DNA from: Azospirillaceae bacterium | GTDB lineage: Bacteria; Pseudomonadota; Alphaproteobacteria; Azospirillales; Azospirillaceae | Assembly: GCA_028283825.1 (NCBI GenBank) | Contig: JAPWJW010000004.1 | Location: 190,292-254,291 of the forward strand | Direction of reading: 5' to 3' | DNA: 64,000 bases | Shown: positions 4,638-52,177 of the stretch, piece by piece | How positions within the stretch are numbered: the stretch's first letter is position 1 | Layout: the number at the start of each line of letters is the position of its first letter | Notes under the pieces: model-generated | The model's database searches: none | What the model saw: only the letters and a program-made list of their open reading frames with translations | Told to the model about the DNA's origin: nothing | Translations under genes and position numbers: made by a program

Positions 4638-4772
4638 AGCGGCTTGAGACTTTGGCTCGCGCCGCTGGAGGCCAGCGACGGCTGGCCCCGCAGGGCGGAA
4701 GGAGGACAGCCAAGCCAGTGGATGCTGGCGCCCGGCGCTTGAGGGGGCCTTTGATCGGTCAAGATCAAAGGC
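4638..4772 (+). repeat. Dispersed structured element, copy 1
   Basis: Divergent member of a three-copy element (others at 41625 and 52043). Hairpin 1: AGCGGCTTGAG (4638-4648) with CTCGCGCCGCT (4656-4666), two internal mismatches. Hairpin 2: GGCCAGC-GACG-GCTGGCC (4670-4687), perfect. A linker ends in GGAGGACAGCCAAG. Hairpin 3: GCCAGT-GGAT-GCTGGC (4714-4729). It is followed by GCCTTTGATC/GATCAAAGGC (4747-4772), a perfect 10-bp stem specific to this copy. The stems differ from the other copies but remain paired, and the GGAT loop is kept. It lies immediately upstream of, or inside, the 5' end of the hydrolase gene. Confidence 0.7.
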
Positions 4773-4966
4773 TGCGCACATGACATCGCTGACGGACGCT
4801 GTATCACGGAACAGGCCCCATGCCTTGGAAATCGCGGGCGCGCATGTTCCCGCGCGCGGGGGTGCACCATCAACTTAAATAAACGGGTGGGCCGGCGTCC
4901 CCGACATTCACCCTGATTAATAAAATTTTAGTGCGCATGGCCCCATCAATTCGGGGACAGGCGCCG

Positions 4967-5329
4967 ATGGCGCGGCCGGTAACGCGATGGATGCGTGGGA
5001 CGTTGGGTACGCAGGGGGATGTTTTGGAAAGTTGGGCCGCCGATTACGTGGTGTTCGAAAAACACGATACCGGATACGGGAGCCTTCCCCTGGTGGTGGC
5101 GATCGAATGCTCACAGCTTTTCCTGGAACCGATGACCGGACCGTCGGGCAAACCGGGCCAGCGCATCACCATCGCCGGCGTGGGCACCGCCAGCCGGCAG
5201 ATCCTGGCCGGCCGGGCATTCGACAACATCGTGTTCAGCACCCCCGCCGGCGAACAGCAAAAGCAGGACGTGGACGCGGTGCAGTTCCTGGACGAAGACG
5301 CGCGCGCCATCATCGTCTACCTGCGCTAA
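4967..5329 (+). CDS. Hypothetical protein, about 120 residues
   Basis: No family recognised. The reading frame is open from a GTG at 4931; ATG at 4967 is chosen because GGGGACAGG lies just upstream, but 4937 and 4991 are also possible. The protein is mixed alpha/beta in appearance (VLESWAADYVVFEKHDTGYG, ITIAGVGTASRQIL, DEDARAIIVYLR), with no signal peptide or membrane segment. Codon third positions are GC-rich, as in neighbouring genes, and the antisense frame reads poorly, which supports it being real. Its 3' end overlaps the convergent transporter gene by 20 bp. Confidence 0.55.
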   Translation: MARPVTRWMRGTLGTQGDVLESWAADYVVFEKHDTGYGSLPLVVAIECSQLFLEPMTGPSGKPGQRITIAGVGTASRQILAGRAFDNIVFSTPAGEQQKQDVDAVQFLDEDARAIIVYLR

Positions 5330-6629
5330 GGCCCCCGCCTGGACGCACGCCCGGCCGCGTCTCCGGCGCCCGCGCGACAACCGGCAAAACTAGCAGTGCC
5401 ACCAGGGCGATCATGATTCCGGGAACCAGGGGCCAGCCGGTACGGTCCACCAACGCCTGGGCGATGAACGGCGCCAGCCCTCCGAACAGGGCGGTGGCAC
5501 CGGTCGCGCCCAGCGCCAGGCCTGTCAGTCGCCCCTCGCCGGGAAACTGCTCCGCCGTCGCCACCGCACCGACCGCGCTGACCCCGCCCGCCACGGCGGC
5601 CAGCACGATGGCCCCGACCAGGGCCTGGGCGGCGGACCCGCTGGCCATCAGCCGGAACAGGGGGATGGGCAGCAAGGCGCCACACAGGATAAGGCCCAGC
5701 AGCACCGGCTTGCGCCCCCAGCGGTCCGACAGGACGCCGAAAACCGGCGTGACCACGATGACCGCCACGGCGGCGGCGGTGGACAGCCACAGCGACATCC
5801 CCTCGCTCAACGATCCGGCCGAGGTCAGGAAGGCCGGCACATAGGTGATGCCGACATAGTAGGTGATCGACCCCAGGGCGGAGATGGCGAAGGACCGCAG
5901 GATGCCGGCCCGATGGTGCGCCAGGGCGTGGCGCAGGGGGTGGGATGGAACGGTGCCCGTCGCCGCCTGCCGTTCGAAATCCGGCGATTCCTCCATGGAC
6001 GAACGGGCAACCCAGACGCCCCCGGCCAAGGCGGCACCCACCAGGAAGGGAATGCGCCAGCCCCAGGTTTCCAGGTCGGCCGCATCCAGCAGATGCACGG
6101 TCGCCGCCGCGACCGCCACGGCCAGCAGGCCGCCGACCTCGCTGGCCGCCGAGGCGCAGGAGGTGACCAGGCCCCGCCGGCCGGGCGCCGCCCCCTCCAG
6201 CAGATAGGCGACGACGCCGGTGTATTCGCCGCCCACCGAGAAACTCATGACGCAACGCAACAGCAGCAACAGCCAGCCCGCCGCCATGCCGACGGCGCCA
6301 TAGGTGGGCAGCAGGGCGGTGGCCAGCATGGCCAGGCTCATCAGCGCCATCGACCACAGCATCATGCGCCGGCGGCCGAGCCGGTCCCCGACATGCCCGA
6401 ACACTACGGCCCCCAGCGGCCGCAGCAGATAGGCGACGGCGAACCCCGCCAGCGCCGTGGCCAGCGACGCCGCCGCCCCGCCGAAAAAGACACGGGCCAG
6501 CACCGTCGCGAAATAGAGGTAGAGGGTGAAGTCGTACCACTCCACCACCGTGGAAAACGCCGCGATGGCCATCGACCGGCGGGGAATGCCCCGCCGTTGC
6601 GCGACGGTCATAGCCTCTGCATGGTCCAT
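5310..6629 (-). CDS. MFS transporter, metabolite:proton symporter (MHS) type
   Basis: A 12-helix inner-membrane carrier that would import an organic acid or similar small metabolite with protons. The N-terminus has STVVEWYDFTLYLYFATVLA, a hallmark of the MHS family (ShiA, KgtP, ProP-like). The loop 2-3 motif GHVGDRLGRRRMM is present, repeated as GVLSDRWGRKPVLL in the second half. The start MDHAEAMTV at 6629 follows GAGGATGGGGCGGCG; the open frame extends 19 codons further without a better site. Length (about 439 residues) is normal. There is no adjacent catabolic gene on the same strand, so the substrate is not indicated by context. Confidence 0.88.
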   Translation of the reverse strand: MDHAEAMTVAQRRGIPRRSMAIAAFSTVVEWYDFTLYLYFATVLARVFFGGAAASLATALAGFAVAYLLRPLGAVVFGHVGDRLGRRRMMLWSMALMSLAMLATALLPTYGAVGMAAGWLLLLLRCVMSFSVGGEYTGVVAYLLEGAAPGRRGLVTSCASAASEVGGLLAVAVAAATVHLLDAADLETWGWRIPFLVGAALAGGVWVARSSMEESPDFERQAATGTVPSHPLRHALAHHRAGILRSFAISALGSITYYVGITYVPAFLTSAGSLSEGMSLWLSTAAAVAVIVVTPVFGVLSDRWGRKPVLLGLILCGALLPIPLFRLMASGSAAQALVGAIVLAAVAGGVSAVGAVATAEQFPGEGRLTGLALGATGATALFGGLAPFIAQALVDRTGWPLVPGIMIALVALLVLPVVARAPETRPGVRPGGGLSAGRR

Positions 6630-6945
6630 CGCCGCCCCATCCTCGCATCGCCGGCGCCCGGGAAAGAACGACCGCGCGGGCGACATCGCCCGACAGGGAC
6701 GATGCCCGCAATGCCGGGGGTAATCCAGCCTTTCAGGCCAACTCGTTGGAAATGTTTGATGATTCTTCGCTGAGCCAGAAAAGACCGGTAAGGATAATTA
6801 TGGAAATAATATAGCAACCCACCGGGATCAGGCTTACGGAATTAGCGCCCACGAGTAGGCGCCAACATAGGGATAGGGTGCCAGGAAAACGGAGCGAAGA
6901 CGCCCATGACGGAGGATTGGCGCGTTTTAGGCTTCCTCCCCAGAA
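6630..6945. other. AT-richer intergenic region upstream of the MHS transporter
   Basis: About 316 bp with no gene seen. GC drops clearly compared with both sides. ATTAT-GGAA-ATAAT (6797-6810) is a perfect short dyad, probably in the transporter promoter. GCGCC/GGCGC arms at about 6845-6861 could form a small hairpin. Nothing else could be supported. Confidence 0.4.
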
Positions 6946-7437
6946 TTAGTGGGCCTGTATTGCCATGAACATCCATAGAGTAAATGCGTAGCTTGATGAG
7001 GCGATCTGCCAATTTTGCATTCGGCCAGGGGGAAAATCACGAAGACCAAAAGCTAGCGCTTCGAAGAACGAAGCGTACTTCGCGATCAGTAAAAATCCAC
7101 TCCACGAACCAAATAAAATTCCCGATAGACTGAAACCCAAGAGTCCCGACGAAAATAATATCGTGGCCAAATATCCTTTACGAATAATTCCCCTGATTAA
7201 TTCAGCTATGCGCCCCGATAGCTTAGGTTCGATCATGAGGGCAAGGTTTGCTGCTATAAATATCGTCCAGAATTTTAAGTCCGGACCTACATACGCCGCA
7301 ACTGCGTCAACTACTTCACCTAGATGCCCCGCTTTCTCGCCGAGTTTAACAGCATCTGCGACAATCATACCAAAAAGCAAGGCGCAGCCGCGTTCCTTGA
7401 AGCACCAAGGGTCCTGGATGATGACACGGTCTTCCAC
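6946..7437 (-). CDS. Hypothetical inner-membrane protein in an AT-richer patch
   Basis: A 163-residue protein of no recognised family. GTG at 7437 is preceded by GGAGGGCCTC, a good ribosome site. About four hydrophobic segments are visible: FWTIFIAANLALMI, GYLATILFSSGLLGFSLSGILF, FLLIAKYASFFEALAFGL and SYAFTLWMFMAI. A polar, charged N-terminal 50 residues precedes the first. Base composition (many A/T-ending codons) differs strongly from surrounding genes, which suggests horizontal acquisition or a fast-evolving orphan. No mobile-element genes or flanking repeats were seen next to it. Confidence 0.55.
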   Translation of the reverse strand: MEDRVIIQDPWCFKERGCALLFGMIVADAVKLGEKAGHLGEVVDAVAAYVGPDLKFWTIFIAANLALMIEPKLSGRIAELIRGIIRKGYLATILFSSGLLGFSLSGILFGSWSGFLLIAKYASFFEALAFGLRDFPPGRMQNWQIASSSYAFTLWMFMAIQAH

Positions 7438-7664
7438 GAGGCCCTCCGGTCATTACGCCGCCACTTCAGATAAATGATCCGACAATTCGCCGCTAGTGAA
7501 AAGGTCTAATCAGCGGTGCCCCCCGTCTGGTCCCCTACCCCGCCTTTCTAACATCTGATAATTTCAGTTGTCGTTCCCCAAGGGAAAGCCTCCTTGACCG
7601 AACCATCAATCGCGCCAACATCACTGCCCGTTCAACACCTACGCCCGACCAAAGGAGCTGCGAT

Positions 7665-8057
7665 ATGGATTGCTTCACTGGTGGTTGCCTGTGCGGTGGC
7701 GTTCGAATTGTGGCGTCTGGGCGCCCGTATCGGGTCGGGCTTTGTCATTGCCTTGATTGCCGCAAGCATCATGGCGCCCTGTTTCACGCCTCGGCGGTGT
7801 TCCCTCAGGACGCGGTGACGGTCGAGGGCGAGACGCGCGACTATGCCGGGCGGTTTTTCTGTCCGCGCTGCGGTTCATCCGTCTTCTCACGCAGCGCCGA
7901 CGAAATCGAAGTCCACCTGGGGGCCCTGGACACCCCGGACCAGTTGGCACCAACCTACGAAAGCTGGATCATCCGCCGCGAGTCCTGGTTGCCACCGTTT
8001 CCGTTCACGCGACGGTACGAGCGTGACCGGGATGCTAGCAGCCGGCTGGAGGAGTAG
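7665..8057 (+). CDS. GFA/CENP-V family zinc-binding protein
   Basis: A small (130-residue) protein with the glutathione-dependent formaldehyde-activating enzyme fold. Zinc ligands are visible: C8 and C10 (GGCLCGGVR), C27, C29 and C32 (GLCHCLDCRKHHG), and C66 and C69 (FFCPRCGS). Family members bind glutathione adducts or have unknown roles; most are not formaldehyde enzymes, so the reaction is not assigned. ATG at 7665 follows AAAGGAGCTGCGAT. It is convergent with the kinase gene, 6 bp away. Confidence 0.88.
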   Translation: MDCFTGGCLCGGVRIVASGRPYRVGLCHCLDCRKHHGALFHASAVFPQDAVTVEGETRDYAGRFFCPRCGSSVFSRSADEIEVHLGALDTPDQLAPTYESWIIRRESWLPPFPFTRRYERDRDASSRLEE

Positions 8058-8063
8058 TCCCGC

Positions 8064-8867
8064 TCACGCGCCCAGCCGTCGCAGGTCGGCATCGACGGCG
8101 GCGGCGTAGCCTTGGCCGAACAGGCGCAGATGCACCAGCAGCGGCCACAGCCGATAGACCGGCAGGCGGTCGCGCCATCCGGGCTCCAGACTCAACGCGT
8201 CGAAGAAGGCGGCGGGCGGGTGGTCGAACAGGGTCAGCATGGCCACGTCCACCTCGCGATGGCCATGATAGCAGGCGGGATCGATCAGGGCCGAGACCCG
8301 CCGGCCGGAGACCAGGACGTTGCCACCCCAGAGGTCGCCGTGCAGCAGGGCCGCCGCCGGCCGTGCCGGCAGATGGTCCGCCAATTGATCGGCCAGCCGC
8401 TCGATGCGGGCGCCCAGAACGGCACCCACATGAGGGGCGTGGCAGCGCAAGCGATGCGCCGCCCAGAAGGCGGGCCAGTCATCGGCTTGCGGGCTGGGCA
8501 TGGCCACGGCGCCGAACCGATGGTCATGCGGCCAGCCATAAGGCGCCTGGGTGGCGGCGTGCAGGCGTTCGAGAACAGCCGCCAGGTCGTCCCAGGCCGT
8601 GGCCGGCCCGCCGTCGGACGCGACCCTCTCCATCACCAGCCAGCCGTCATCAACCGCCAGCACCCGGGGTGCCGGAACACCCTTGGCGGCGATGGCGCGC
8701 AGCATGGCGGCCTCCTGCCGCGCGGTGCCGCCCTTCTTGGCGATGGCCGGCGTACCGTCAACGAGCGCCAGTTCATAGACCAGCGACAGGTCGCCACCCG
8801 CCAGCCGGCGCAGGAACACCACCTCCTGGCCCAGCAGGATCGCCAGCGCGTCCTTCATCGGTTCCAT
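8064..8867 (-). CDS. Fructosamine kinase family protein
   Basis: A cytoplasmic kinase-fold protein of the ketosamine-3-kinase/APH group that phosphorylates fructosamine or ribulosamine adducts on proteins so they can be removed. HGDLWGGNVLV is the catalytic loop (Asp base), and IDPACYHGHREVDVAMLTLF the metal-binding segment characteristic of the family. The lysine of AIAKKGG would contact ATP. The start MEPMKDAL at 8867 follows GGGGGATGTGAC; seven more codons upstream are open. Length 267 residues, slightly short for the family (about 290). Confidence 0.85.
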   Translation of the reverse strand: MEPMKDALAILLGQEVVFLRRLAGGDLSLVYELALVDGTPAIAKKGGTARQEAAMLRAIAAKGVPAPRVLAVDDGWLVMERVASDGGPATAWDDLAAVLERLHAATQAPYGWPHDHRFGAVAMPSPQADDWPAFWAAHRLRCHAPHVGAVLGARIERLADQLADHLPARPAAALLHGDLWGGNVLVSGRRVSALIDPACYHGHREVDVAMLTLFDHPPAAFFDALSLEPGWRDRLPVYRLWPLLVHLRLFGQGYAAAVDADLRRLGA

Positions 8868-8898
8868 GTCACATCCCCCTATCGGCAATAGCGCCCCC

Positions 8899-9525
8899 TC
8901 ACCCCAGGCCCTTCAGGTAGGCGCAGAACATGTCGGCCATGGCGTCGGCGTAGGCCGCGATCTCCCCCGCCGTGCGCGGGCTTTCGGAGAAGTGCCGGCC
9001 CACCTCCGCCAGCGTGGTGGTGATGAGGTCGCCGGCAAGCCCCCGGGTCGCGTCGGTGGCGTGGGGCAGCACCGCCGCCATGAAGGCGCGGACGATCTTT
9101 TCCCCCGGCGCCATCGCGTCCTGCGCCTCGGGCGCGTCGCGGTAGAGGGGGGCCGCGTCGTTCAGGGCCACGCGCATCGCCGCCTCGTCACATTCGGACT
9201 TGAGGAAGGCATGGACCAGGGTGCGCAGCCGGTCCAGCGGCGGATGGCCGTCATCCTCCAGGATGCGGCGCAGCAGGTCGGTGGTCTGCCGCCATTCGTC
9301 GTGTTGCAGGCGGAACAGGATCGCCGCCTTGTTGGGGAAATACTGGTAGAGGGAGCCGACGCTGACCCCGGCCTTTTCCGCCACCCGCGCCGTGGTGAAC
9401 CGGGCCGCCCCCTCCGTCGCCAAAACCTGAACCGCCGCCTCCAGGATGGCGGCGACCAGGTCGGTGGAACGCGCCTGCTTGGGCTGTTTTCGCGAGGAAA
9501 TCGGCGCGTTTCGGCGGTCGGCCAT
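8899..9525 (-). CDS. TetR family transcriptional regulator
   Basis: A 208-residue regulator. The N-terminal HTH lies at residues 20-65 (AILEAAVQVLATEG, RVAEKAGVSVGSLYQYFPNK), with a helical ligand domain after it. The start MADRRNAP at 9525 is chosen because the frame upstream (to 10200) runs antisense to the methyltransferase gene and reads as noise. Divergent from the O-methyltransferase gene; the 99-bp gap contains a 20-bp dyad, so it probably represses that gene and itself. The ligand is unknown. Confidence 0.9.
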   Translation of the reverse strand: MADRRNAPISSRKQPKQARSTDLVAAILEAAVQVLATEGAARFTTARVAEKAGVSVGSLYQYFPNKAAILFRLQHDEWRQTTDLLRRILEDDGHPPLDRLRTLVHAFLKSECDEAAMRVALNDAAPLYRDAPEAQDAMAPGEKIVRAFMAAVLPHATDATRGLAGDLITTTLAEVGRHFSESPRTAGEIAAYADAMADMFCAYLKGLG

Positions 9526-9552
9526 CGGGGTTTCCGGCAATGCGAATAGGGA

Positions 9553-9572
9553 ATATGACGAATTAGTCGTAT
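9553..9572. promoter_or_regulatory. Probable TetR operator
   Basis: ATATGACGAATTAGTCGTAT is a 20-bp dyad with 8 of 10 positions symmetric, centred between the TetR start and the methyltransferase start. Size and position fit a TetR-family operator acting on both divergent promoters. Assigning it to this TetR is inference. Confidence 0.6.
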
Positions 9573-41617: not shown

Positions 41618-41624
41618 GTTTTCG

Positions 41625-41756
41625 GCGGCATGAGTTCCCCCTCATGCCGCTAGGCCGCGACTGCGGTCGCCGGAAGTTTTTGGGGAGCGTAGCGGACTGA
41701 AAACTGAGGATAGCCAAGGGCCGGATGGCCCGCCGGCGCTTGAAGCGACCTAAAAA
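41625..41756 (+). repeat. Dispersed structured element, copy 2
   Basis: Hairpin 1: GCGGCATGAG-TTCCCC-CTCATGCCGC (41625-41650), perfect 10-bp stem. Hairpin 2: GCGAC-TGCG-GTCGC (41657-41670). The linker has GCCGGAAGTTTTTGGGGAGC and CTGAGGATAGCCAAG. Hairpin 3: GGGCC-GGAT-GGCCC (41718-41731). The element ends in CCTAAAAAC, within which lies the stop codon (TAG on the minus strand) of the autotransporter. It begins 8 bp after the LacI stop, filling the gap between two convergent genes. It may end transcription from both sides. Confidence 0.75.
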
Positions 41757-44700
41757 CTCCAGCTGGCGCGCAGCACCCCGGAATGGCTCTGGTAGTCGCG
41801 GCGCAGCTCGCCGGCATATTCCAGGCGCAGGGTGAGACCATCGCCGTGGTCCAGGGTGGCGCCCAGGCCCAGGGCCAGACCGTCGGCGGCCAACTGGCCG
41901 GTGCTGCTGACGAAACCGACGCCACCCAGTTCGCCGGTGGTGGCGACGGGGCCGTTGAGGTAGTCGTGCACCCAGGCCACCCGCACATCGGGGCGCAGGC
42001 GGCCCACACCGGTGTCGAGGGCGGTGTCCAGGCGCACGCCCAACTCCTGCGTCAGATTGTCGGTCTTGAGCGCGCCGACGGCCAGGCCAGCCACGCCGGC
42101 GTCATGTTCATCATAGGCGTGGTTGGTCAGGCGCACGGCGCGCAGGCCAAATTCCGGCGTCAGGGTCAGGGCGCCCTGCACGGGCAGGGCGTACCCCACC
42201 GTCAGCTTGCCCACATATTGCTCCCCGCCATAGTTGGCGTTGGCGCGGGCACCCAGGAAATCGATCCAGCGGCGCTGGTCGTAATGGTTGTAGCCGAACG
42301 CCACCTGGCCCTCGACCGACAGGCGCTGGTCGGCGAAGTCGGGCCGCCAGACGCTGTAGGCCGTCAGCTGATAGGTCGCGACGCGCGTCAGGCTGCCAGC
42401 CGTGACACCCTGGCCGACGGCGGCACCGTTCAGCCAGCTGAACGCCAAGCCCGCCATGACCTGGCTGTCGGCATACCAGTCGCCGCCCAGCACCAGGCCG
42501 GCGCTGCTGGCACGATAGCCCGCCGCCTGCGGGCTGTCGCCGCGCAGGGCGCCACCACCCAGGACCTCCCCCCAGATCGTGCCCTGCCCACCGGCCGACC
42601 CGCTGCCGGCACCAGGCCCCCCATCGGCCATCACGGTCGCCGCCGTGCGCTGATGCTGGCTGATGGCGGTGGTGGTCGGGCTGACCGACAGGGCCACGGA
42701 CTGGGCGGTCAATTGGCTGGGCGAAAGCTGCGCCACCGCCGCCTGGCGGGCGGCGCCGATCAGGCTGTCCAGGGGCGCCAGCACGGCCAACTGGACGGCC
42801 TGCGCTGCCGTGCCGCCACTGGCCGCGATGATGTCCAAGGCGGCGCCCGTGCCCATGGCCGCCCCGCCAGCAGCCCGGCCCACGGCGGCGTAGTTAGTGC
42901 CAGGCCTGGTTGGCGTCGTGCCCCCACCCGTCCCAACGTCCCCACCGCCGCCATTGCCACCGCCCGTCGCCCCCCCATCGCCACCCGTGGTTCCGGTGCT
43001 GGCCGTGTTCAGGGTCAGCACCAGGTCGGTCCTGCCGCCGCTGGTGATGGTGGAACTGGTCACGGTGTAGCCGGCGGCCGTCAGCACCAGGTTGCTGGTG
43101 GCAAGGCCGCCACTGGCCGCGACGATGGTGTAGCTGCCGGCCGACAGGGAACCGCTGGTGGCCTTCAGCGTGACACTGCCGCCGGTCAGGCTGGCCGATC
43201 CGCTGATCACCAGGCTGCCGTAGCTGCCGGTGCTGCTGACGCCGACCACCAGGTTGCCCGCCCTCTGGCTGTAGCTGCCGGTGATGTTGATGGCGCTGTT
43301 CACCAGCAGGGTCGCCCCGCTGTTGATCACGCTATGGCTGCCGACATTGATGTTGTCGTTCAGTAGCAGCGTGCCGGACGCGAAGCGCAGGTTGGCCAGG
43401 GTGTTGGTGATCTGGCCGACACCACCGTTGGTTCCCGTCAGCGTGCCCGGCGCCGCGTCCGTGCCGCCACTGATGGACAGGTCGGTGCTGGAATAGTTGG
43501 CGATATCGCCGACGATGGCGCCGGTGACCGACAGGGCGCCCAGGGTACCCGTGCTGGCGATGTACAGCGCCGTGGCGCCGCCGGCGGTGTTGGTCAGCGT
43601 GCCGGTGACGTTCAGCGTATCCAGCGTGCCGCCGATATAGTCGTTGGCGGCGCTGGCCAGCAGGGTGTTGCCGCTGACCGAACCGGTGGCATCCAGGCCG
43701 GTGATGCCGCTGGTGACGGTGGCCCCTGAGTAGCTGGAGCCCGCCCCACCCTGCACCAGGGCGACGCTATCGCCCACGAAGTAGTTGGCGACGCCCGACA
43801 GGCCGGCATTGACCGTGCCGCCGGTGATGTTGGCCGCCCCGCTGACGCTCAGCACATGGCCGGCGACATTCAGGCTGCCGCCGGTCTGGCTGTAGTTGCC
43901 CGTTACCGTCCCGTCGCCCGCCAGGGCCAGGCTGGCCCCGGTGTTGGTGACCGTGTGGCTGCCGACGTTGATGGCGTCGCCCAGGCTGAGGTCGCCCGAG
44001 GCGAACACCAGGTTGGCCTGCGTGTTGCTGATGGTGCCGCCGGTGAAGACACCCACCGTGCCGTTGGACCCGCCGGTCACCACCAAATCATTGGCGCCGT
44101 TGTTCACCACGTTGCCGATGATGGTGCCGCTGTTGGCGAGCGTGCCTAGCGTACCGGTCGGGGCGACATACAGCGCCGTGGCGCCACCGGCCGTGTTGGC
44201 CAGGGTGCCGGTGACCGCCAGGCTGTCCAGGCTGCCGCCAATGTAGTCGTTGGCGGCATTCGCCAGCAGGCTGGTGCCGCTGGTGGATGCCGTGGCGTCC
44301 AGGCCGGTAATGCCGCTGGTGACGGTGGCACCACCGTAGCTGGACCCCGCGCCGCCGCTGACCAGCGTGGCGCTGTCGCCCACCAGGTAGTTGGCAGTGG
44401 CGGACAGGCCGGCATTGACCACACCGCCGGTGATGCTGGCCGCACCGCTGATGCTCAGCACATGGCCATTGACGCCCAGGATGCCGGCCGACTGGCTGTA
44501 ATTGCCGGTAACCGCCACATTGCTGGCCAGCGCCAGGTTGGCCCCGGCATTGGTCACCGTGTGGCTGCCGACGTCGATGGCGTCGCCCAGGCTGAGGTCG
44601 CCCGAAGCGAAGGTCAGGTTGGCCTGGGTGTTGCTGATGGTACCGCCGGTGAAGACGCCCACCGTGCCGTTGGAGCCACCGGTGATCACCAGATCATTGG

Positions 44701-47700
44701 CGCTGCTGTTGAGCACATTGCCGATGATGGTGCCGGTGTTGGAAAGATTGCCGACGTTGCCGCTGCCGGTGATGTTGACCGCCGTGACGGCGGACAGCGT
44801 GCCGCTGTTGGTCAGGGTGCCCAGGGTGCCGCTGACGTAATCGCTGACCAGGGTCAGGACCAGGTCGGTGGCGCTGCCACCGGCGACCGTGCCCAGGGTG
44901 GCGGTGAAGCCGCTGGCCGCCGCCGTCAGGCCGCTGGCCGACAGGCTGCCGCCGGCCTCGACGATGGTGTAGCTGTCGCCGGCCAGCAGGTTGGCGCCCG
45001 CCAGGGCGGTGACGGCCACGGTGCCGCCCGTCAGGCTGGCCGAACCGCTGACCACCAGTTCGCCGGCCGTACCACTGCCGATGCCGGCGGCCAGGGTGCC
45101 GCCCGTCTGGCTGTAGTTGCCCGTCACGCTGACGCTGCTGGCCAGCAGCACGGATGCGCCGTTGTTGACCAGCGTGCCGGTGCCGACGTTGACCGCGTCG
45201 CTGATCGCCACGTTGCCGGACGCCAGCACGACATTGGCGCCGGTGCTGGTGATGGTGCCGCCGGTCAGGCTGCCCGTCACCGAACCGCTGCCGCCGGTGA
45301 TGCTGAGGGCGTTGGACGACAGGTTGACGATGTTGCCGCTGATGGTGCCGCTGTTGGCCAGGCTGCCCAGGCTGCCCGCGGCGTCCACCCGGATGGCATT
45401 GGCGCCCCCCACCAGGCTGCCGGTATTGACTAGTGTGCCCAGTGAACCGCCCGCCGCCACGTTCACGGCCGTCGCGGCGGTGAGGGCGCCGGTATTGGCC
45501 AGGGTGCCCAGGGTGCCACCGATATAGTCGCTGACCACCGTCAGCAGCAGGGCGGTGGCGCCGCCGTTGGTGGCGGTGCCCAGGGTGGCGCTGAAGCCCG
45601 TGACCATCGCCACCACATCTGTCGCCGCCAGCACCCCACCCACCTGGGCGAGGGTGTAGGCCTGCCCCGCGATCAGGTTGGTACCCGCCAGGGCGGAGAC
45701 AGCGACGGTGCCACCCGTCAGTGCCGCACTGCCGCTGACCACCAGTTCACCTGCGCCGGCGCCACCCAGGCCAGCCACCAGGGTGCCGGCGACCTGGGCG
45801 TAATTGCCGGTGACGCTGACCGATCCGGTCAGCAGCACTGACGCCCCGGTGTTGACCAGTGTGCCGGCGCCGACGTTGACATCATCGTTCAGGGCCAAGT
45901 TGCCGGACGCCAGCACGACGTTGGCGAGCGTGCTGGTGATCGTGCCCTTTTGGCCGGCGGTGTAACCGGTCAGCGTACCGACGGCAACGCCGGAACCGCC
46001 GGTGATGCTGAGCGCCTCGCCCGACAGGTTGAGGATGTCGCCGGCGATGGTGCCGCTGTTGGCCAAGGTGCCCAACCGGCCGCCATTTTCCACCAGGATG
46101 GCGGTCGGCGCCGCGATCACGCCGCTGTTGGACAGGTATCCGATGGTGCCGGCGTTATAGACGCCGTAGGTCGCCCCCACCAGGGTACCGGCGTTCAGCA
46201 CCGTGCCGATGCTGCCGATGTTGTAGAGGCCGGCGGCCGTGGGCGCGCCGGCGTCGATGATCCGGCCGTCATTGACCAGCACGTCGATGGTGCCGGCGTT
46301 GTAAAGCGCCAGCGGCGCCTGCACCACGCCGCTGTTGCTGAGCGTGCCGATATGGGCGCCGGCGTAGTTGCCGATGCCGGTCACCCCGCCGGTGATCGTA
46401 CCGCCATTGTCCAGCGTGCCGACGGCACCCAGGTTGGCGACACCGGCGACGGTGCCCTGCAGGGTGCCGATATTGGTAAGGGTGCCGACGCTGCCGGCGG
46501 TGCCGACATAGACGGCGGTGTCGGCGCTGACCACGCCGCTGTTGCCCAGCGTGGCGGTGGTGCCGCCGATATAGTTGTTGGCCACCGTGGCCACCAGTTC
46601 CACCAGGCCGCCGATGGTGACGGTGGCGACCGCGGCCGTCAGGCCGGGCACCGTCACCTCGGTCAACACACCGCTGTAGCTGGACGCACCGCCACCGATC
46701 ACCAGGGTGCCCAGCACGGCACCGGCCAACTGGGTGCCGCCGGCCGCCAGGTTGGCCGTCACCGTGCCGCCGCTGAGCAACGCCGCGCCGCTGACCACCA
46801 GCTGACTGGCGCCCAGCGCCAGGGTGCCGCCGGTCTGGGTATAGTTGCCGGTGATGGACAGGGTGGTGCCCAGCACCAGGCTGGCTCCGCTGTTCAGCAC
46901 CGTGTGGGCGCCCACGTCGATGCCCGCGTTCACCAGCAGGCCACCGCCCCCGAACACCACGTCGCCGCCCCGGCTGCGCAGCAGGCCCACTCCACCGCCC
47001 AGGCCGATCAGGGTACCCAGCGCACCGCCGGTGGCCCCGGTGATGGTCAGGCCGGAGGTGCTGTCATTCAGGATGGCGCCAGCGATGACGCCGCTGTTGG
47101 AAAGAGTACCCAGCGTGCCGGTGGCGGCGACATACACCGCCGTCGCCGCCGTCAGGGTGCCGGTGTTGGCCAGCATGGGCAGGCTGCCGCCGACATAGTC
47201 GTTGGCCGCCGCCAGGACCAGGTCGGTCCCGTCCACCCGCCCGGTGGCCGCCAGGCCGGCAACACCGGCGACAACGGTGACGCCGGTATAGCTGGACCCC
47301 GCACCACCCTGCACCAGGGTGCCGGCGGCATCGCCCGCCAGATAGTTGGCGGTGGCGGACACGTGCCCCACCACCGTGCCGCCGGTCAGCGCGGCGGCGT
47401 CGCTGACCGCCAGCCAGGCGGTGCCGGGCGTGACCTCAAGGCTGCCCCGGGTCTGGGTGTAGCCGCCGGCGATGCTGACCACCCCGGACAGGGCCAGGGC
47501 GGCTCCGTTGTTCACCACCGCATGGCCGGTGACGTCCACCGCGTCGTTCAGCAGCAGGGCGCCGGGGCCGAACACCAGATCGCCCACGGTATGGCTGATG
47601 GTGGCCTGGGCGCCTGCGACACCCGTTAGCGTGCCCGGCACCGTGCCGCCGGCGATGGTCATGGCCTCGGCCGACAGGTTCACGATGTTGCCGATGATGG

Positions 47701-48979
47701 TGCCCTGGTTGACCAGGGCCGCCAGGGTGGCGCCGCTGTTCAGGCGCAGGGCGGTGGGGCCGCTGATCACGCCGCTGTTGCTGATGGTTCCGGTGGCGCC
47801 GGACAGGTCGATGCCGAAGCCGGTGCCCTTGATGACGCCGCTGTTGCTGACCGACCCCAGGATGGTGGCGTTGGCCAAGCCCTTGTAGCCACTGATGGTG
47901 CCGGCATTGTCCAGCAGGGTCAGCACGCCCTGGCCGTTGTAGACACCCTCCCCCCGGCTGGTGATGAGGCCGGTGTTGCTGACCGTGCCCAAGGTGCCCC
48001 AGTTCACCAGCGCCACGCTGCGCCCGGTGATGGTGCCGCTGTTGCTGACCGTGCCCAGCGTGCCCAGATTGTAGAGGCCGGACAGAAGGGCGCTGATGGT
48101 GCCGGCATTGTCCACCAGGCCGAAGGCGGCGCGGTTCAGCACCGCCGCCAGGGTGCCACCGGTGATGTTGCCGGTCAGGGAATTGATCAGCGTGCCGATC
48201 GTGCCCTCGTTCAACACACCCGACAGGCCCCCGATCAGGCCGCTGTTGTTCAGGATGCCCAGGCTGCCGATGGTGTGGACGTACAGGGCGGTGTTGGCGG
48301 CGTTGAGGGTGCCGCTGTTGGCCAGCACGCCGATGGTGCCCTTGTTGAACACCGCCACGCTGAAGCCCAGCACGGCGTTGGTGTTCACCAGCATGTCCAG
48401 CCGTCCGACATTCACCAATCCGCCGGCGGCACCATTCAGCACGCCGTTATTGATGAAGGTGCCGATGACACCGTCGTTATAGATGGCGAACTGGCTGCCG
48501 GCGATGCCGTCGCCGATGGTGCCGCTGTTGACCAGCGTGCCGACGGTGCCGCTGGTGTAGAACGCCGTGGTGGCGGCCGTCAGGTGGGCATGGGCGCCGA
48601 TGGAAACGGTGTCGATGCTGCCCTGGTTCAGCAGGGCGACCGGCCCGCCGACGATGACGCCATCCTCCAGCAGCAGGCCGATGCTGCCCTGGTTGCGCAG
48701 GCCGAAGGTGCCGGTGATGCTGCCGTCATTGCTCAGCGTGGCGATGACACCGGTGTTGGCGACACCCGTTGCGCTGCCGCCCGCGACAATGCCGGTTCCG
48801 GTCACGACCAGGCTGTTGAGGGTGCCGGCGTTGGCATACCCGATGGTGGCGCCTGTCAGCGTCACGTCCTGCGCCCGCACGTCGGAAGGGGCCAGAACCA
48901 CCCCCAGGATCAGCAGCGAGGTGCCCGCCAGCAGTCCGCCCGATGCCGGCATGCCGGCGACCTTGGCGCCTTTCACCAT
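41750..48979 (-). CDS. Giant type Va autotransporter with seven-fold passenger repeat
   Basis: A protein of about 2,409 residues. ATG at 48979 follows GGGGAGGACGCGTG and a signal peptide (GGLLAGTSLLILGVVLAPSDVRAQ). Roughly residues 30-430 carry short units of 18-22 residues of the form xGTLxNxGxIxG, typical of a beta-helix. Then come seven units of about 202 residues. A Gly/Thr-rich linker (STGTTGGDGGATGGG region) and an alpha-helical segment lead to the C-terminal autotransporter barrel (about 290 residues, ending GELRRDYQSHSGVLRASWSF with terminal Phe). No protease or lipase motif was seen, so an adhesin or surface-layer role is likely. Convergent with lacI. Confidence 0.92.
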   Translation of the reverse strand: MVKGAKVAGMPASGGLLAGTSLLILGVVLAPSDVRAQDVTLTGATIGYANAGTLNSLVVTGTGIVAGGSATGVANTGVIATLSNDGSITGTFGLRNQGSIGLLLEDGVIVGGPVALLNQGSIDTVSIGAHAHLTAATTAFYTSGTVGTLVNSGTIGDGIAGSQFAIYNDGVIGTFINNGVLNGAAGGLVNVGRLDMLVNTNAVLGFSVAVFNKGTIGVLANSGTLNAANTALYVHTIGSLGILNNSGLIGGLSGVLNEGTIGTLINSLTGNITGGTLAAVLNRAAFGLVDNAGTISALLSGLYNLGTLGTVSNSGTITGRSVALVNWGTLGTVSNTGLITSRGEGVYNGQGVLTLLDNAGTISGYKGLANATILGSVSNSGVIKGTGFGIDLSGATGTISNSGVISGPTALRLNSGATLAALVNQGTIIGNIVNLSAEAMTIAGGTVPGTLTGVAGAQATISHTVGDLVFGPGALLLNDAVDVTGHAVVNNGAALALSGVVSIAGGYTQTRGSLEVTPGTAWLAVSDAAALTGGTVVGHVSATANYLAGDAAGTLVQGGAGSSYTGVTVVAGVAGLAATGRVDGTDLVLAAANDYVGGSLPMLANTGTLTAATAVYVAATGTLGTLSNSGVIAGAILNDSTSGLTITGATGGALGTLIGLGGGVGLLRSRGGDVVFGGGGLLVNAGIDVGAHTVLNSGASLVLGTTLSITGNYTQTGGTLALGASQLVVSGAALLSGGTVTANLAAGGTQLAGAVLGTLVIGGGASSYSGVLTEVTVPGLTAAVATVTIGGLVELVATVANNYIGGTTATLGNSGVVSADTAVYVGTAGSVGTLTNIGTLQGTVAGVANLGAVGTLDNGGTITGGVTGIGNYAGAHIGTLSNSGVVQAPLALYNAGTIDVLVNDGRIIDAGAPTAAGLYNIGSIGTVLNAGTLVGATYGVYNAGTIGYLSNSGVIAAPTAILVENGGRLGTLANSGTIAGDILNLSGEALSITGGSGVAVGTLTGYTAGQKGTITSTLANVVLASGNLALNDDVNVGAGTLVNTGASVLLTGSVSVTGNYAQVAGTLVAGLGGAGAGELVVSGSAALTGGTVAVSALAGTNLIAGQAYTLAQVGGVLAATDVVAMVTGFSATLGTATNGGATALLLTVVSDYIGGTLGTLANTGALTAATAVNVAAGGSLGTLVNTGSLVGGANAIRVDAAGSLGSLANSGTISGNIVNLSSNALSITGGSGSVTGSLTGGTITSTGANVVLASGNVAISDAVNVGTGTLVNNGASVLLASSVSVTGNYSQTGGTLAAGIGSGTAGELVVSGSASLTGGTVAVTALAGANLLAGDSYTIVEAGGSLSASGLTAAASGFTATLGTVAGGSATDLVLTLVSDYVSGTLGTLTNSGTLSAVTAVNITGSGNVGNLSNTGTIIGNVLNSSANDLVITGGSNGTVGVFTGGTISNTQANLTFASGDLSLGDAIDVGSHTVTNAGANLALASNVAVTGNYSQSAGILGVNGHVLSISGAASITGGVVNAGLSATANYLVGDSATLVSGGAGSSYGGATVTSGITGLDATASTSGTSLLANAANDYIGGSLDSLAVTGTLANTAGGATALYVAPTGTLGTLANSGTIIGNVVNNGANDLVVTGGSNGTVGVFTGGTISNTQANLVFASGDLSLGDAINVGSHTVTNTGASLALAGDGTVTGNYSQTGGSLNVAGHVLSVSGAANITGGTVNAGLSGVANYFVGDSVALVQGGAGSSYSGATVTSGITGLDATGSVSGNTLLASAANDYIGGTLDTLNVTGTLTNTAGGATALYIASTGTLGALSVTGAIVGDIANYSSTDLSISGGTDAAPGTLTGTNGGVGQITNTLANLRFASGTLLLNDNINVGSHSVINSGATLLVNSAINITGSYSQRAGNLVVGVSSTGSYGSLVISGSASLTGGSVTLKATSGSLSAGSYTIVAASGGLATSNLVLTAAGYTVTSSTITSGGRTDLVLTLNTASTGTTGGDGGATGGGNGGGGDVGTGGGTTPTRPGTNYAAVGRAAGGAAMGTGAALDIIAASGGTAAQAVQLAVLAPLDSLIGAARQAAVAQLSPSQLTAQSVALSVSPTTTAISQHQRTAATVMADGGPGAGSGSAGGQGTIWGEVLGGGALRGDSPQAAGYRASSAGLVLGGDWYADSQVMAGLAFSWLNGAAVGQGVTAGSLTRVATYQLTAYSVWRPDFADQRLSVEGQVAFGYNHYDQRRWIDFLGARANANYGGEQYVGKLTVGYALPVQGALTLTPEFGLRAVRLTNHAYDEHDAGVAGLAVGALKTDNLTQELGVRLDTALDTGVGRLRPDVRVAWVHDYLNGPVATTGELGGVGFVSSTGQLAADGLALGLGATLDHGDGLTLRLEYAGELRRDYQSHSGVLRASWSF
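43000..47691 (-). repeat. Seven internal repeats of about 606-615 bp in the autotransporter gene
   Basis: Each unit starts with an N-I/V-xN-xSxxxL-xI-xGG motif, contains G-N-Y-x-Q-xxGxL and LTGGTV, and mostly ends near DYIGGTLGTLxNTGTL. Plus-strand positions of unit starts are about 47691, 47079, 46043, 45337, 44722, 44116 and 43510. Spacings are 612, 1036, 706, 615, 606 and 606 bp; the long one contains an insertion of short GTLxN repeats. Units 5 and 6 share long near-identical stretches (TVGVFTGGTISNTQANL), indicating recent duplication or conversion. Confidence 0.85.
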
Positions 48980-49089
48980 CACGCGTCCTCCCCACCCTCG
49001 TCGGTCCCTTTGCCCGGCGTTAGATCGCCAGTGCCTTTACCAAGCGCAGTTGTGGCGGTGTTGCCCGTGACCAAACGGTGACCGTCGGA

Positions 49090-49155
49090 AAAATGCGAAG
49101 ATTAACCGCAATAAAATCGGCTGATTTCCAGAACTTGGGCCTTTGTTCGCATTTT
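49090..49155. promoter_or_regulatory. Widely spaced inverted repeat upstream of the autotransporter
   Basis: AAAATGCGAA (49090-49099) and TTCGCATTTT (49146-49155) are perfect 10-bp complements 46 bp apart in the AT-richer gap upstream of the autotransporter gene. They may be two half-sites for a looping or dimeric regulator, or the base of an RNA stem. The rest of the 206-bp gap shows nothing clear. Confidence 0.4.
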
Positions 49156-49185
49156 ATGGATATTTTGGGGAAGGGCCCGCCCGCC

Positions 49186-49743
49186 TCAAAAACCGATGGC
49201 GCCGGTCGGCAGCACCTGGGCGAAGGGGCCGGCCAGGGTCTGGTTGTGGTGGCGGATGATGGCGGCGGCGGACAGGGCCGGCGTATCCACCGTGGTGTGG
49301 GCATCAGCGGCCAGCACGGCCTCGAACCCTAAGTCGCGGGCCGCCCGGCACGACGCGTCCACGCAATATTCCGTCTTCATGCCGGCCAGCACCAGGCGCC
49401 CCACCCCATGGTCGCGCAGCAACGCGGCCAAATCGGTGCCGGCGAACACGCTGGGCCGCGTCTTGCGCAGCACCACGTCGCCCGAACAGGGCGCCAGTTC
49501 CTCCACCAATTGCCAGTCGGCGGCACCGGGGGCGGCGGGCGACCCGGCGGGGCCGTCATGCTGGACCAGCACCACCAGGCCGCCGGCGGCCCGGGCGCGG
49601 AACGCCAGATCCCGGATGCGAGAGACGACGACCGCCCCGCCGTGCGCCGGCGTGGACCCATGCACCAGGCCAACCTGCATGTCGATGACCAGCAGGGCGG
49701 CCCGTGAAGGCGATGACGGGGATCTGGAAGGATTGCTGCTCAT
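49186..49743 (-). CDS. Isochorismatase-family cysteine hydrolase
   Basis: A 185-residue cytoplasmic hydrolase. ATG at 49743 follows GGAGACATCCC. The catalytic triad is visible: D21 in AALLVIDMQVG, a lysine in LRKTRPSVFAGTDL, and cysteine in GMKTEYCVDASCRAA. Members act on amides and related compounds (nicotinamide, carbamoylsarcosine, isochorismate); the substrate is not clear. It lies 222 bp after the MocR-type regulator on the same strand. Confidence 0.9.
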   Translation of the reverse strand: MSSNPSRSPSSPSRAALLVIDMQVGLVHGSTPAHGGAVVVSRIRDLAFRARAAGGLVVLVQHDGPAGSPAAPGAADWQLVEELAPCSGDVVLRKTRPSVFAGTDLAALLRDHGVGRLVLAGMKTEYCVDASCRAARDLGFEAVLAADAHTTVDTPALSAAAIIRHHNQTLAGPFAQVLPTGAIGF

Positions 49744-49965
49744 GGGATGTCTCCGTTCGATCAGGGGGAACGGAGGGGCATCCACAGTGTCCTCCCCCGT
49801 CCCGAAGGGCGGGGGATGCGGAACGACCTGGCCTTTACGCCGGCAAGCCCATTCCACACGCCCCGCCGGTGGCGGTCGTGGTGGTCTGGGTAGTGGTTTT
49901 GGCAACCACGGCAGTGAGGAACAGGGCGTTCATGGGGCGCAGGATGGGCAGGACCGGGCGCGCCG

Positions 49966-51411
49966 TCAAGCCCGCGATGGCGGGGCGGATGAATTGCCGG
50001 CCACCAGATGGACCAGGCGGTCGCAGTCGGCCGCCAGCCGGCGCTCATTCAGGTTGGTGACGCCCAGCAGCAGGCCATGCGCCACCTCCGTCCCGTACCA
50101 GGGCGACAGCGGCACTGGCGCCATGCCGTAGGCCAGGGCCTGCACCGCCACGGCCTGGTCGTCCGTGCCCGGCGGCAGGTCGACCACCAGCGACAGGCCG
50201 GCGGTAGCCCGTACCGCCAGCCGGCCGCGCAGCGCCTGGGCCAGCGCGGCCCGGCGGGCGGCGTAAAGGCGCTTCATGCGGCGCAGATGGCGCAAATAAT
50301 GCCCATCGCGCAGGAAGGCGGCGACGGCGCGCTGCACCGGCGCAGCCGGGGCGGGCGCCAGGCAGGCGGCCACGTCGCCGAAATGGCCGGCCAGCGCCGG
50401 CGGCACCACCAGGAAACCCAGGCGCAAGGCGGGGCTCAGGGTCTTGCTGAAGGTGCCGGCGTGCAGCACCCGGCCGTCGCCGCCGGCGGCATGGTCCACC
50501 GCCGCCAGGGCCGGGGCCGCCCGCCCGGCCAGTTGCAGCTCGCTCAGGTAATCATCCTCCAGCACCCAGGCGCCGGTCCGCCGCGCCCAGTCCAGCAGGG
50601 CGACACGGCGCGGCAGCGACAGGGCCACGCCCAAGGGCGCCTGCTGCCCCGGCGTCACCACCGCCAGCGCGGCATCGGGGGCCGCCCTGATGCCGGCGGC
50701 GACATCGATCCCCTGCCCGTCCACCGGCACAGGGGCCGGCATCATGCCGGCGAAGGTCAGCGCCAGACGCGTCAAGGGGAAGCCCGGTTCCTCCATCCAC
50801 GCCGCCTTGCCCTCCAGCCGCAGGGCGCGGATGACCAGGCCGATGGTGGCGCTGAATCCGGACGTCACCAGCACCTGGGCCGGGGCGCAGCGGATGCCGC
50901 GCGCGATGGCGAGATATGCGGCGATCTCCGCCCGCAACTCGGCATGACCACGCGGGTCGGGATACCCCACCGGCGCCGCCGCGGCGACCCGCGCGCCCTG
51001 CGTCAGAACCCGGGACCACAGGGTAAAGGGAAAGGCGTCCTGCGCCGGCACGCCCATCTGGAAGGCCAGGGGCGGCACCTCGAAATCAGGGAAGAAGGCC
51101 GGCAACGGCCCGGTCTCGGACGTCGGCGCCAATACCGGGGCTTCGGCCACGGGCCAGCGCGCCACGCGGGTGCCCGCCGCCCCCATGCCCACGGCCAACT
51201 GCTCATCAACCAGCCGTTCATAGGCCACGCGCACAGTGCCGCGCGCGACACCCAGCTGTGCCGCCAGGTCGCGCCACGACGGCAGGCGGGCACCGGCGGC
51301 CAAACGCCCGTCCAGGATGGCCCGGCGCAGGGTGGCGTGGATCTGGGCCGCCAGCGGCGTGCCGGCGGCCCGGTCGACATGGAAGGAAAGGTCGGCGTCC
51401 ATGGGCATCAT
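49966..51411 (-). CDS. MocR/PdxR-type regulator (GntR HTH fused to aminotransferase fold)
   Basis: A 481-residue protein. The N-terminal GntR winged HTH is at about residues 15-80 (LAAQIHATLRRAILDGRLAAGARLPSWRDLAAQLGVARGTVRVAYERLVDEQ). The fold-type I aminotransferase-like domain holds YPDPRGHAELRAEIAAYLAIARG, LVTSGFSATIGLV, LEDDYLSEL and the PLP-lysine segment HAGTFSKTLSPALRLGF. Such proteins sense PLP or an amino compound. ATGs at 51411, 51408 and 51402 lie together with no clear ribosome site, so a leaderless start is possible. Divergent from the AhpD-like gene, its likely target. Confidence 0.92.
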   Translation of the reverse strand: MMPMDADLSFHVDRAAGTPLAAQIHATLRRAILDGRLAAGARLPSWRDLAAQLGVARGTVRVAYERLVDEQLAVGMGAAGTRVARWPVAEAPVLAPTSETGPLPAFFPDFEVPPLAFQMGVPAQDAFPFTLWSRVLTQGARVAAAAPVGYPDPRGHAELRAEIAAYLAIARGIRCAPAQVLVTSGFSATIGLVIRALRLEGKAAWMEEPGFPLTRLALTFAGMMPAPVPVDGQGIDVAAGIRAAPDAALAVVTPGQQAPLGVALSLPRRVALLDWARRTGAWVLEDDYLSELQLAGRAAPALAAVDHAAGGDGRVLHAGTFSKTLSPALRLGFLVVPPALAGHFGDVAACLAPAPAAPVQRAVAAFLRDGHYLRHLRRMKRLYAARRAALAQALRGRLAVRATAGLSLVVDLPPGTDDQAVAVQALAYGMAPVPLSPWYGTEVAHGLLLGVTNLNERRLAADCDRLVHLVAGNSSAPPSRA

Positions 51412-51434
51412 GGTACAGCATTTTTGATCATTCT

Positions 51435-51454
51435 TGGGTCTATTCGCTGACCCA
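51435..51454. promoter_or_regulatory. Inverted repeat TGGGTC-N8-GACCCA before the MocR gene
   Basis: Six-base perfect arms (51435-51440 and 51449-51454) in the 171-bp divergent gap between the MocR-type regulator and the AhpD-like gene, 24 bp from the MocR start. Candidate binding site of the regulator; MocR sites are often direct repeats, so this is uncertain. Confidence 0.4.
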
Positions 51455-51582
51455 TGGGTGGCGCATCCTCTGGTCATCAAACATGGCGGCCGGCCGAAAT
51501 CGTTGCCCCGGACGCAGCGTCCCCACACCCGGCCACCGTCAACGTTACGATGTTCCACCCCTGACCCGAAGGAACCCCGATC

Positions 51583-52036
51583 ATGAGCCTACGTCTCGAC
51601 TACGCCGCCGCCGCCCCCGCCGGCATGAAGGCCCTGGGCGGCGTCTATGGCTACATCAGCCAGTGCGGCCTGCCGGCCCAATTGGTTGACCTGGTCTATC
51701 TGCGCACCTCGCAGATCAACGGCTGCGCCTTATTGCATCGACATGCATTCCCGCGACCTGCTGAAGGGCGGGCTGACCGTGGAAAAGCTGGTGCTGGTGT
51801 CCGTCTGGCATGAGGCGGGCGCGCTGTTCACGGAAAAGGAACAGGCCGCCCTGCGCTGGGCCGAAACCGTGACCCGCGTGGCCGACACCGCCGTGCCGGA
51901 CGCGGAATTCCAGGCCGCCCGCGCCCACTTCACCGACAAGGAACTGTCGGATCTCACCATCGCCATCGGTTTGATGAACGCCTACAACCGCCTGGCCATC
52001 AGCTTCCGCGCCGTGCCGGCGGCGGCGAAGGTCTGA
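51583..52036 (+). pseudogene. AhpD-like carboxymuconolactone decarboxylase family gene, frameshifted at the CxxC
   Basis: A small alkylhydroperoxidase-like protein of about 150 residues if repaired. ATG at 51583 follows GAAGGAACCCCGATC. The first frame reads MSLRLDYAAAAPAGMKALGG to LRTSQINGCA and then goes wrong. The second frame gives YCIDMHSRDLLKGGLTVEKL to the stop at 52036. The expected INGCAYCIDMHS needs GCCTATTGC where the sequence has GCCTTATTGC, so one T is extra at 51730-51731, exactly between the two cysteines of the redox CxxC. Otherwise codons and conservation look intact. Either a recent null mutation or a sequencing indel. Confidence 0.88.
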
Positions 52037-52042
52037 GCCCCC

Positions 52043-52177
52043 AGCGGCATGAGTTGATGCTCATGCCGCTGTAGCCCCCGACTGGGGGCGCCGGAGATTT
52101 TAGGGCGCTGACGCTGCCCTTGAATCGAGGACAAGGCAAGCGGCCGGATGGCCGCGCCCGCCATCTGTGGGCGTCTA
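52043..52177 (+). repeat. Dispersed structured element, copy 3
   Basis: Hairpin 1: AGCGGCATGAG-TTGATG-CTCATGCCGCT (52043-52070), perfect 11-bp stem. Hairpin 2: CCCCC-GACT-GGGGG (52075-52088), different bases from copies 1 and 2 but paired. The linker has GCCGGAGATTTTAGGG and CGAGGACAAGGCAAG. Hairpin 3: GCGGCC-GGAT-GGCCGC (52140-52155). A final stem CGCCC/GGGCG follows and the element ends CTATAAAC, supplying the TAG stop of the minus-strand binding-protein gene. It starts 7 bp after the stop of the AhpD-like gene: again a convergent gap completely filled by the element. Confidence 0.75.

Follow-up and report, generated by a model that had tools for sequence, protein, structure and literature searches.

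Transposases of the IS1031 group select TNA and give 3-bp repeats, as stated in excerpts of PMC12016507, and the miniature inverted-repeat transposable elements (MITEs) of the IS5 family, IS1031 group, offer a point of comparison for the repeat described here. The repeat lies in a 64,000-nucleotide (nt) stretch of DNA (the window; positions 190292–254291 of contig C4) of a Nitrospirillum genome of 7.16 Mb in 5 contigs, in which an earlier note, made from the sequence alone, had reported three copies of a dispersed element with covarying hairpins (here copies A, B, and C). Our analysis indicates that this is probably a non-autonomous, MITE-like mobile element of Alphaproteobacteria carrying a conserved folded core. 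Like the MITEs, as far as the excerpted sources describe them (for TNA, PMC12016507), the element is short and non-coding, has short inverted ends and a TNA 3-bp duplication, and occurs between genes in many copies; unlike them, it has a multi-hairpin core that outlasts the ends in conservation and also occurs alone, and no insertion sequence with matching TACC/GGTA ends was found (15 PF01609 loci; 2.29 Mb). By its ends and duplication the element can be described as MITE-like, with a putative partner enzyme; on the present sequences, it is distinguished from MITEs by an inner fold that is widely conserved, more so than the element ends, and whose hairpins can be exchanged.

Other small repeats resemble the element in part. 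BOX, RUP, and SPRITE of Streptococcus pneumoniae, according to excerpts of PMC3049150, are likewise small structured repeats, over-represented between convergent genes, BOX being modular and BOX and RUP having terminal inverted repeats and target-site duplications; in contrast to the element here, in BOX and RUP one end pairs with the other, SPRITE contains a U-rich tract, and all are streptococcal (PMC3049150). The CIR repeats of Caulobacter and related Alphaproteobacteria, which by host and size are the nearest known repeats in the excerpted sources, are ~110 bp long and intergenic and have a proposed hairpin RNA fold, with two arms, a linker, and GANTC at the terminal loop (excerpts of PMC2229807). 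The present element instead has 3–5 hairpins; this sets it apart from CIR as described, and kinship is possible. Repetitive extragenic palindromic (REP) sequences with a GTAG or CGTC tag are also extragenic palindromes near coding regions, and GTAG REP ends often give TAG, but REP sequences span 20–40 bp (excerpts of PMC3733652). No description of this repeat family turned up in our searches of open-licence literature. A known RNA family, such as a guide RNA, was considered and rejected, as no Rfam match falls on any element: Rfam 15 gives 0 matches in the window at the gathering cut-off and 3 matches across 10 other loci, all of them outside the elements, and a permissive search of 5 loci gives 5 matches, the best with E 0.12 and all under the cut-off.

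The folded core and its distribution

The linker motif of the element (13 nt, GAGGAYARSCAAG) has 53 exact matches in the genome (backward control, 0), from which 29 distinct long-form copies were picked and aligned with MAFFT (alignment A3; alignments A2 and A4 hold 45 and 68). Covariance model R1, with 98 positions and 26 pairs, was built from 29 copies, copy B among them but not copies A and C. With filters off, R1 recovers in the window exactly the three copies that had been reported, at 41651–41745 (100.5 bits), 52072–52170 (74.1 bits), and 4669–4744 (50.4 bits), the next-best match having 13.2 bits (E 0.32).

On the strand that carries GAGGAYAGCCAAG, the element shows, in order, hairpin 1, which is variable; TAG in most copies; P2, its loop being GACY; GCCG(G/C)A; P3; GAGGAYA; GCC; AA; P4, with loop GGAT; CGCC; GGC; and GCCTGAGG. 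The core consists of P2, P3, GAGGAYA, P5, and P4, followed by CYTGAGG. P3 is either long, with an internal loop GGA/GGA, or short. P5, a small helix GCC/GGC that can pair and that closes the hairpin numbered 3 in the earlier note (P4), is an addition to that description; in L006, L012, and copy C its two strands are swapped to give GGC/GCC. The same three sequences break an outer helix GCCG/CGGC, which was dropped, while GCC/GGC persists. A fifth hairpin, its tip reading TGATCGGTCACGATCA or similar, is present in some copies, A among them. In the full-length form (146–170 bp), found in Azospirillum sp. RU38E, Niveispirillum, others, and a minority of Nitrospirillum copies, the core is enclosed by TACC...GGTA ends. 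Across the class, the most conserved positions include loops and linkers. The features of the three copies in the window are as follows.

4636..4773, + strand: copy A, apparently a decayed full-length form, with hairpin 1, P2, a shortened P3, GAGGACA, P5, P4, and hairpin 5 (GATCGGTCA..GATC type)
4636..4668, + strand: copy A hairpin 1 (fold)
4670..4687, + strand: copy A P2, GGCCAGC-GACG-GCTGGCC (sequence and fold)
4702..4714, + strand: copy A linker GAGGACAGCCAAG, with the P5 5′ strand at 4709–4711 and its partner at 4734–4736
4714..4729, + strand: copy A P4, loop GGAT (sequence and fold)
4746..4773, + strand: copy A hairpin 5, GGCCTTTGATCGGTCAAGATCAAAGGCT (sequence and fold)
41624..41651, + strand: copy B hairpin 1 (GGCGGCATGAG type), which varies among copies (sequence and fold)
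41651..41745, + strand: copy B core (R1, 100.5 bits)
41653..41668, + strand: copy B P2, GGCCGC-GACT-GCGGTC (family alignment)
41675..41705, + strand: copy B P3, long form, with the GGA/GGA internal loop and a family-conserved G–T pair (family alignment)
41706..41718, + strand: copy B linker GAGGATAGCCAAG, with the P5 5′ strand at 41713–41715 and its partner at 41735–41737
41718..41731, + strand: copy B P4, GGGCC-GGAT-GGCCC (sequence and family alignment)
52042..52071, + strand: copy C hairpin 1 (sequence and fold)
52072..52170, + strand: copy C core (R1, 74.1 bits)
52074..52089, + strand: copy C P2, loop GACT (sequence and fold)
52127..52140, + strand: copy C linker GAGGACAAGGCAAG, with P5 GGC at 52135–52137 against GCC at 52160–52162, a double change from the consensus GCC/GGC
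52140..52155, + strand: copy C P4, GCGGCC-GGAT-GGCCGC (sequence and fold)

The layout of copy A is common to L009, L014, L015, L018, L028, L045, L046, and L050. Of the stems that had been proposed for hairpin 2, that of copy A recurs as P2, but that of copy B had been read in a shifted register: the family-wide loop GACY gives GGCCGC/GCGGTC, while a single-sequence fold of copy B still favors the GCGAC/GTCGC of the earlier note.

The covariance search of the whole genome and of relatives for which that note had called returned many further copies. The genome holds at least 150 R1 copies (worst listed E 4e-15), and scaling from the 23 of these 150 that fall in a 400-kb stretch holding 68 when searched alone gives an estimate of ~440. 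Each of the seven Nitrospirillum genomes searched has at least 70 copies. In a wider search, 79 of 80 listed records (of at least 120 matching stretches) belong, by title or by our assignment, to Alphaproteobacteria, and one (L118) is titled just Proteobacteria; host genera among the listed matches are Nitrospirillum, Azospirillum, Niveispirillum, Roseomonas and kin, Sphingomonas, Erythrobacter, Mesorhizobium, Jiella, Magnetospirillum, Telmatospirillum, and others. A wider model, R2, used for a class-level genome search, matches at least 24 of 289 Alphaproteobacteria genomes, own genome included, in a patchy distribution (E ≤ 1e-5; 17 candidates scored per genome). A phylum-level search gave 12 of 299 genomes, own genome included and all of the same class, and is uninformative on other classes because every genome with listed kinship is of that class. 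Three plasmid records match the RU38E element and none matches copy B; no phage matched. For counts by position we used 143 R1 matches, comprising 68, 37, and 38 copies in largely syntenic 400-kb stretches of three Nitrospirillum species. The GANTC of CIR occurs anywhere in 3 of these 143 cores, in 1 of 30 RU38E copies, and in 0 of 94 cores from outside Nitrospirillum; it occurs in 29 of the 143 once 50 nt are added per side, and copy C has one at 52122.

Pairing is kept throughout the family. In A3, 99.2% of 742 cells at the 26 pairs are standard, 14 of the 26 pairs have double changes, and the covariation score is 0.442, compared with 0.134 for shuffled alignments and at most 0.093 for slid structures (which reach at most 47.6% paired). 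Outside Nitrospirillum, 94 matches (91 distinct rows, from source loci that include no Nitrospirillum, in an alignment fitted to the model) are 97.4% standard, with double changes at 22 of 26 pairs and a score of 0.290 versus 0.063 shuffled. A model-free test anchored on GGAT, a loose anchor that lets in chance places, gave 85–91% Watson-Crick pairing at P4 pairs 2–5 versus 37–42% shuffled at 139 places in loci L112–L231 (a few of them Nitrospirillum), and 77–80% versus 37–43% for P4 at 107 Nitrospirillum places. In L112–L231, P4 pair 1 is near-invariant (89% versus 83% shuffled), and anchored P2 is weaker (52–73% versus 34–66% shuffled). Motif count, covariation, genome search, and the alignment of relatives support the reading as a new family of intergenic repeats whose structure covaries.

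Mismatches are biased by strand: G–T exceeds A–C by 42 to 4 in A3 and 85 to 10 in A4, and by 19 to 4 and 32 to 10 when one conserved G–T pair is removed. Because the opposite strand would read a G–T pair as an A–C mismatch, the given strand is the folded one. Covariation and the mismatch bias together show that one strand of the core can fold into P2, P3, P4, and the small P5, with the loops GACY and GGAT and the linkers fixed and the stems free but complementary. The folded molecule is RNA or single-stranded DNA, and the mismatch bias does not distinguish the two.

How pairing is kept bears on whether the hairpins have a function. In Azospirillum sp. RU38E (30 loci examined out of at least 41 copies), identical P3 types are combined with different hairpin 1 types, with mutual information of 0.73 versus 0.85 shuffled (p 0.88) and with 10 of 60 four-type quartets complete, showing by sequence comparison that hairpin types reassort among Azospirillum copies. 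Pairing is then preserved without point-by-point compensation, and part of the covariation may therefore stem from exchange of whole hairpins. The earlier note had read compensatory change as the product of selection on RNA structure; the preserved pairing stands, but the reading is qualified by the independent assortment and because the data fit RNA and single-stranded DNA alike. The alternative that survives best, which we nonetheless judge improbable, takes the hairpins to have no selected function: whole-hairpin exchange and template-switch correction of imperfect palindromes would supply the pairing, and the element would be an ordinary MITE with palindromic filling. The assortment in RU38E favors it, as does one site common to the three species (141174), where 1, 4, and 3 units stand in array on the plus strand; most of what separates these units is paired changes within P2, P3, and P4 amid similar sequence, though one unit has an unpaired P4 position. 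However, correction of palindromes in double-stranded DNA is not expected to produce the strand asymmetry of G–T over A–C; reassortment is less clear in A3, where between-stem dependence is weak (p 0.05–0.14) and just 4 of 405 quartets are complete; loops and linkers, as noted above, are among the best-conserved positions; and the core occurs without ends.

Element ends, target duplication, and mobility

The RU38E copies, which were found without an end pattern, have TNA on both sides in 24 of 30 cases, and the two are identical in 19 of these 24; the shuffled mean is 7.5, and 0 of 10000 shuffles is as high as 19. Full-length copies from wider loci, found with the fixed search pattern ATACC + GGTAT, have the same TNA on both sides in 8 of 11 cases as read by eye (two of the 11 recur among the 30 of RU38E). 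Intergenic DNA has diverged in Nitrospirillum such that empty sites cannot be read to the base, and a closer pair was used: a Niveispirillum metagenome-assembled genome (MAG) and strain AAP38, which are 92–95% identical around the site. A 146-bp element (L169, 5428–5573) lies between TCA and TCA in the MAG, and AAP38 has a single CCA there, apparently inside the loop of the upstream gene's terminator. Comparison of L112 and L147 with three genomes gave no informative site for the element; a 102-nt stretch at L147:4384–4485 is a different dispersed palindrome, which AAP38 has and a close MAG largely lacks at the same place.

In the own genome, ten A-type copies were read by eye: flanks agree in L009 (TAA/TAA), L015 (TCA/TCA), L028 (TGA/TGA), and L050 (TCA/TCA), disagree in L014, L018, L045, and L046, and are unreadable in L044 and copy A. 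Comparison across Nitrospirillum species, with a site defined as a cluster of copies and "present" as any R1 match between anchors, covered 58 own-genome sites: G006 has an R1 match at 10, none at 23, and 25 not alignable, and G002 has a match at 15, none at 24, and 19 not alignable; orientation differs from the own genome at 1 of 10 and 3 of 15 present sites, respectively. A non-autonomous mobile element was among the possibilities raised in the earlier note; in its favor are the duplicated target, documented in relatives though not for copies B and C, the clean empty site, and the presence/absence differences among species.

Several observations weigh against a mobile element with a recognized fold. 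In three host genomes, no PF01609 locus among the 15 examined is enclosed by TACC/GGTA ends, and longer TACC...GGTA elements in 2.29 Mb of DNA amount to 2 pairs, neither with matching TNA and one from the ends of known copies. The empty site reads CCA and the duplicates TCA, a mismatch. A flanking TNA in RU38E is the stop codon of an open reading frame of at least 80 codons in 12 of 30 copies (with identical duplicates in 9 of those), a count that carries no chance baseline. Among the 143 Nitrospirillum cores, ATACC lies within 75 nt to the left in 9 and SGTAT within 75 nt to the right in 11; both ends occur in 1, which has no duplication; and TACC ends are absent from copies B and C, as from most of the Nitrospirillum copies checked. 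With ends nearly absent, core-only mobility rests on presence/absence and tandem copies, and presence/absence among Nitrospirillum species cannot separate gain from loss. P5 is variable in few rows, with 5 of 68 A4 rows failing at one P5 pair, and recognition of a folded strand is our proposal.

Some loci bear on how copies accumulate and on what inserts into or near them. In L316 and in G059:C37:65040–65365, copies abut, and the TNA between them is common to both, as if a new copy had entered the duplicated target of an earlier copy, which would give head-to-tail arrays. In two copies, L052 (G000:C3:1943000–1948500) and L053 (G000:C3:1553000–1560000), an IS110-family element occupies the same position, between GCCAAG and P4; the two share a stretch of 1,251 nt that is 98.7% identical and takes in part of the repeat, and the L052 insert has PF01548 and PF02371 in a frameshifted gene. 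The long insert was rejected as an autonomous version of the element, given the IS110-family transposase domains (L052) and the same point of insertion in both copies; the shared point indicates that the repeat serves as a landing site. A group II intron match (L162:3845–3919) lies ~310 nt from a full-length copy at 4233–4383, and a Jiella copy (L150:1671–1893) lies ~37 nt upstream of a 5S rRNA gene on the same strand.

Position behind genes

Of the 143 Nitrospirillum copies, 61 lie in convergent, 77 in codirectional, and 4 in divergent gaps, with 1 at an edge (genes called with our own script), compared with 133 convergent, 477 codirectional, and 208 divergent gaps of at least 30 nt in a census. 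For 123 of 142 copies there is a stop codon no more than 50 nt from the 3′ end or 80 nt from the 5′ end. In the window, two copies had earlier been placed between convergent genes; by our gene calls these are B and C, and copy A sits in a divergent gap (4585 to 5024). The two copies in convergent gaps had also been said to supply the stop codon of the minus-strand gene; the minus-strand stops begin 4 nt past the model ends of B and C, and the outcome hinges on the element boundary chosen. A 2410-aa open reading frame next to copy B (41750–48982, − strand) has no Pfam match at E 0.001. The common orientation reported for the copies holds inside the window but not genome-wide, where the linker motif has 26 forward and 27 reverse matches.

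TAA and TGA are TNA, TTA and TCA are the same stops read from the other strand, and TNA is probably scarce elsewhere in a GC-rich genome; a TNA-targeting enzyme would then often strike stop codons, leaving a stop on the gene side. A flanking TNA that is the neighbor's stop codon would help explain why copies hug gene ends.

The position behind genes would also fit a cis-acting RNA of the 3′ untranslated region, a terminator or RNA stabilizer under host selection, and the element is present in all three compared species at some sites; we regard this alternative as very unlikely. The action as a bidirectional terminator that had been suggested is not supported: on the folding strand none of the 143 cores has TTTT in the 14 nt that follow it, on the opposite strand 6 of 143 do, and the orientation of codirectional copies is even (37 in the same direction as the neighboring genes, 40 opposite). 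In addition, relatives have no match at most alignable sites (23 of 33 and 24 of 39).

A REP family, or one of bacterial interspersed mosaic elements (BIMEs), mobilized through single-stranded hairpins by the mover of REP, the REP-associated tyrosine transposase (RAYT, a Y1 tyrosine transposase), would account for many extragenic copies near stop codons, frequent TAG before P2, and tandem and inverted clusters, but is scarcely credible and is contradicted for the own genome, which has 0 RAYT matches (PF01797) in 7.16 Mb while 5 of 14 control genomes match. To our knowledge, a 3-bp duplication is not expected from Y1 transposition, which also counts against it.

A proposed course of mobilization and its meaning

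For the MITE-like mobile element that we favor, the following course can be proposed. The full-length form would insert at TNA and duplicate 3 bp, as comparison of sequences shows for Azospirillum sp. RU38E, Niveispirillum, and others, and insertion at the TNA of a stop codon would leave a stop on the gene side. With insertions that disrupt genes or promoters being lost as well, the choice of TNA would place copies directly behind genes in either orientation. A trans-encoded factor, most likely a transposase or other nucleic-acid-binding protein, would recognize the folded single strand, either RNA or displaced DNA. Most Nitrospirillum copies, including B and C, may be a derived core-only form or old insertions that have lost their ends. 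We put forward more tentatively, as a possibility about which we are doubtful, that this is a mobile element of a new sort, in which the mobilizing machinery reads the folded single strand of a transcript or displaced DNA beyond the double-stranded ends, with hairpins as exchangeable cassettes whose stems drift while pairing, with stop codons used as safe harbors through TNA insertion, and with the core alone perhaps sufficient in Nitrospirillum.

The family carries a warning that covariation in dispersed repeats can arise through hairpin exchange. The stop-codon target offers a simple mechanistic cause, besides selection, for the clustering of small repeats behind genes. With more than 100 copies in one genome, the family provides very many natural variants of one fold, and fold-reading DNA mobilization would therefore be directly testable in these bacteria.

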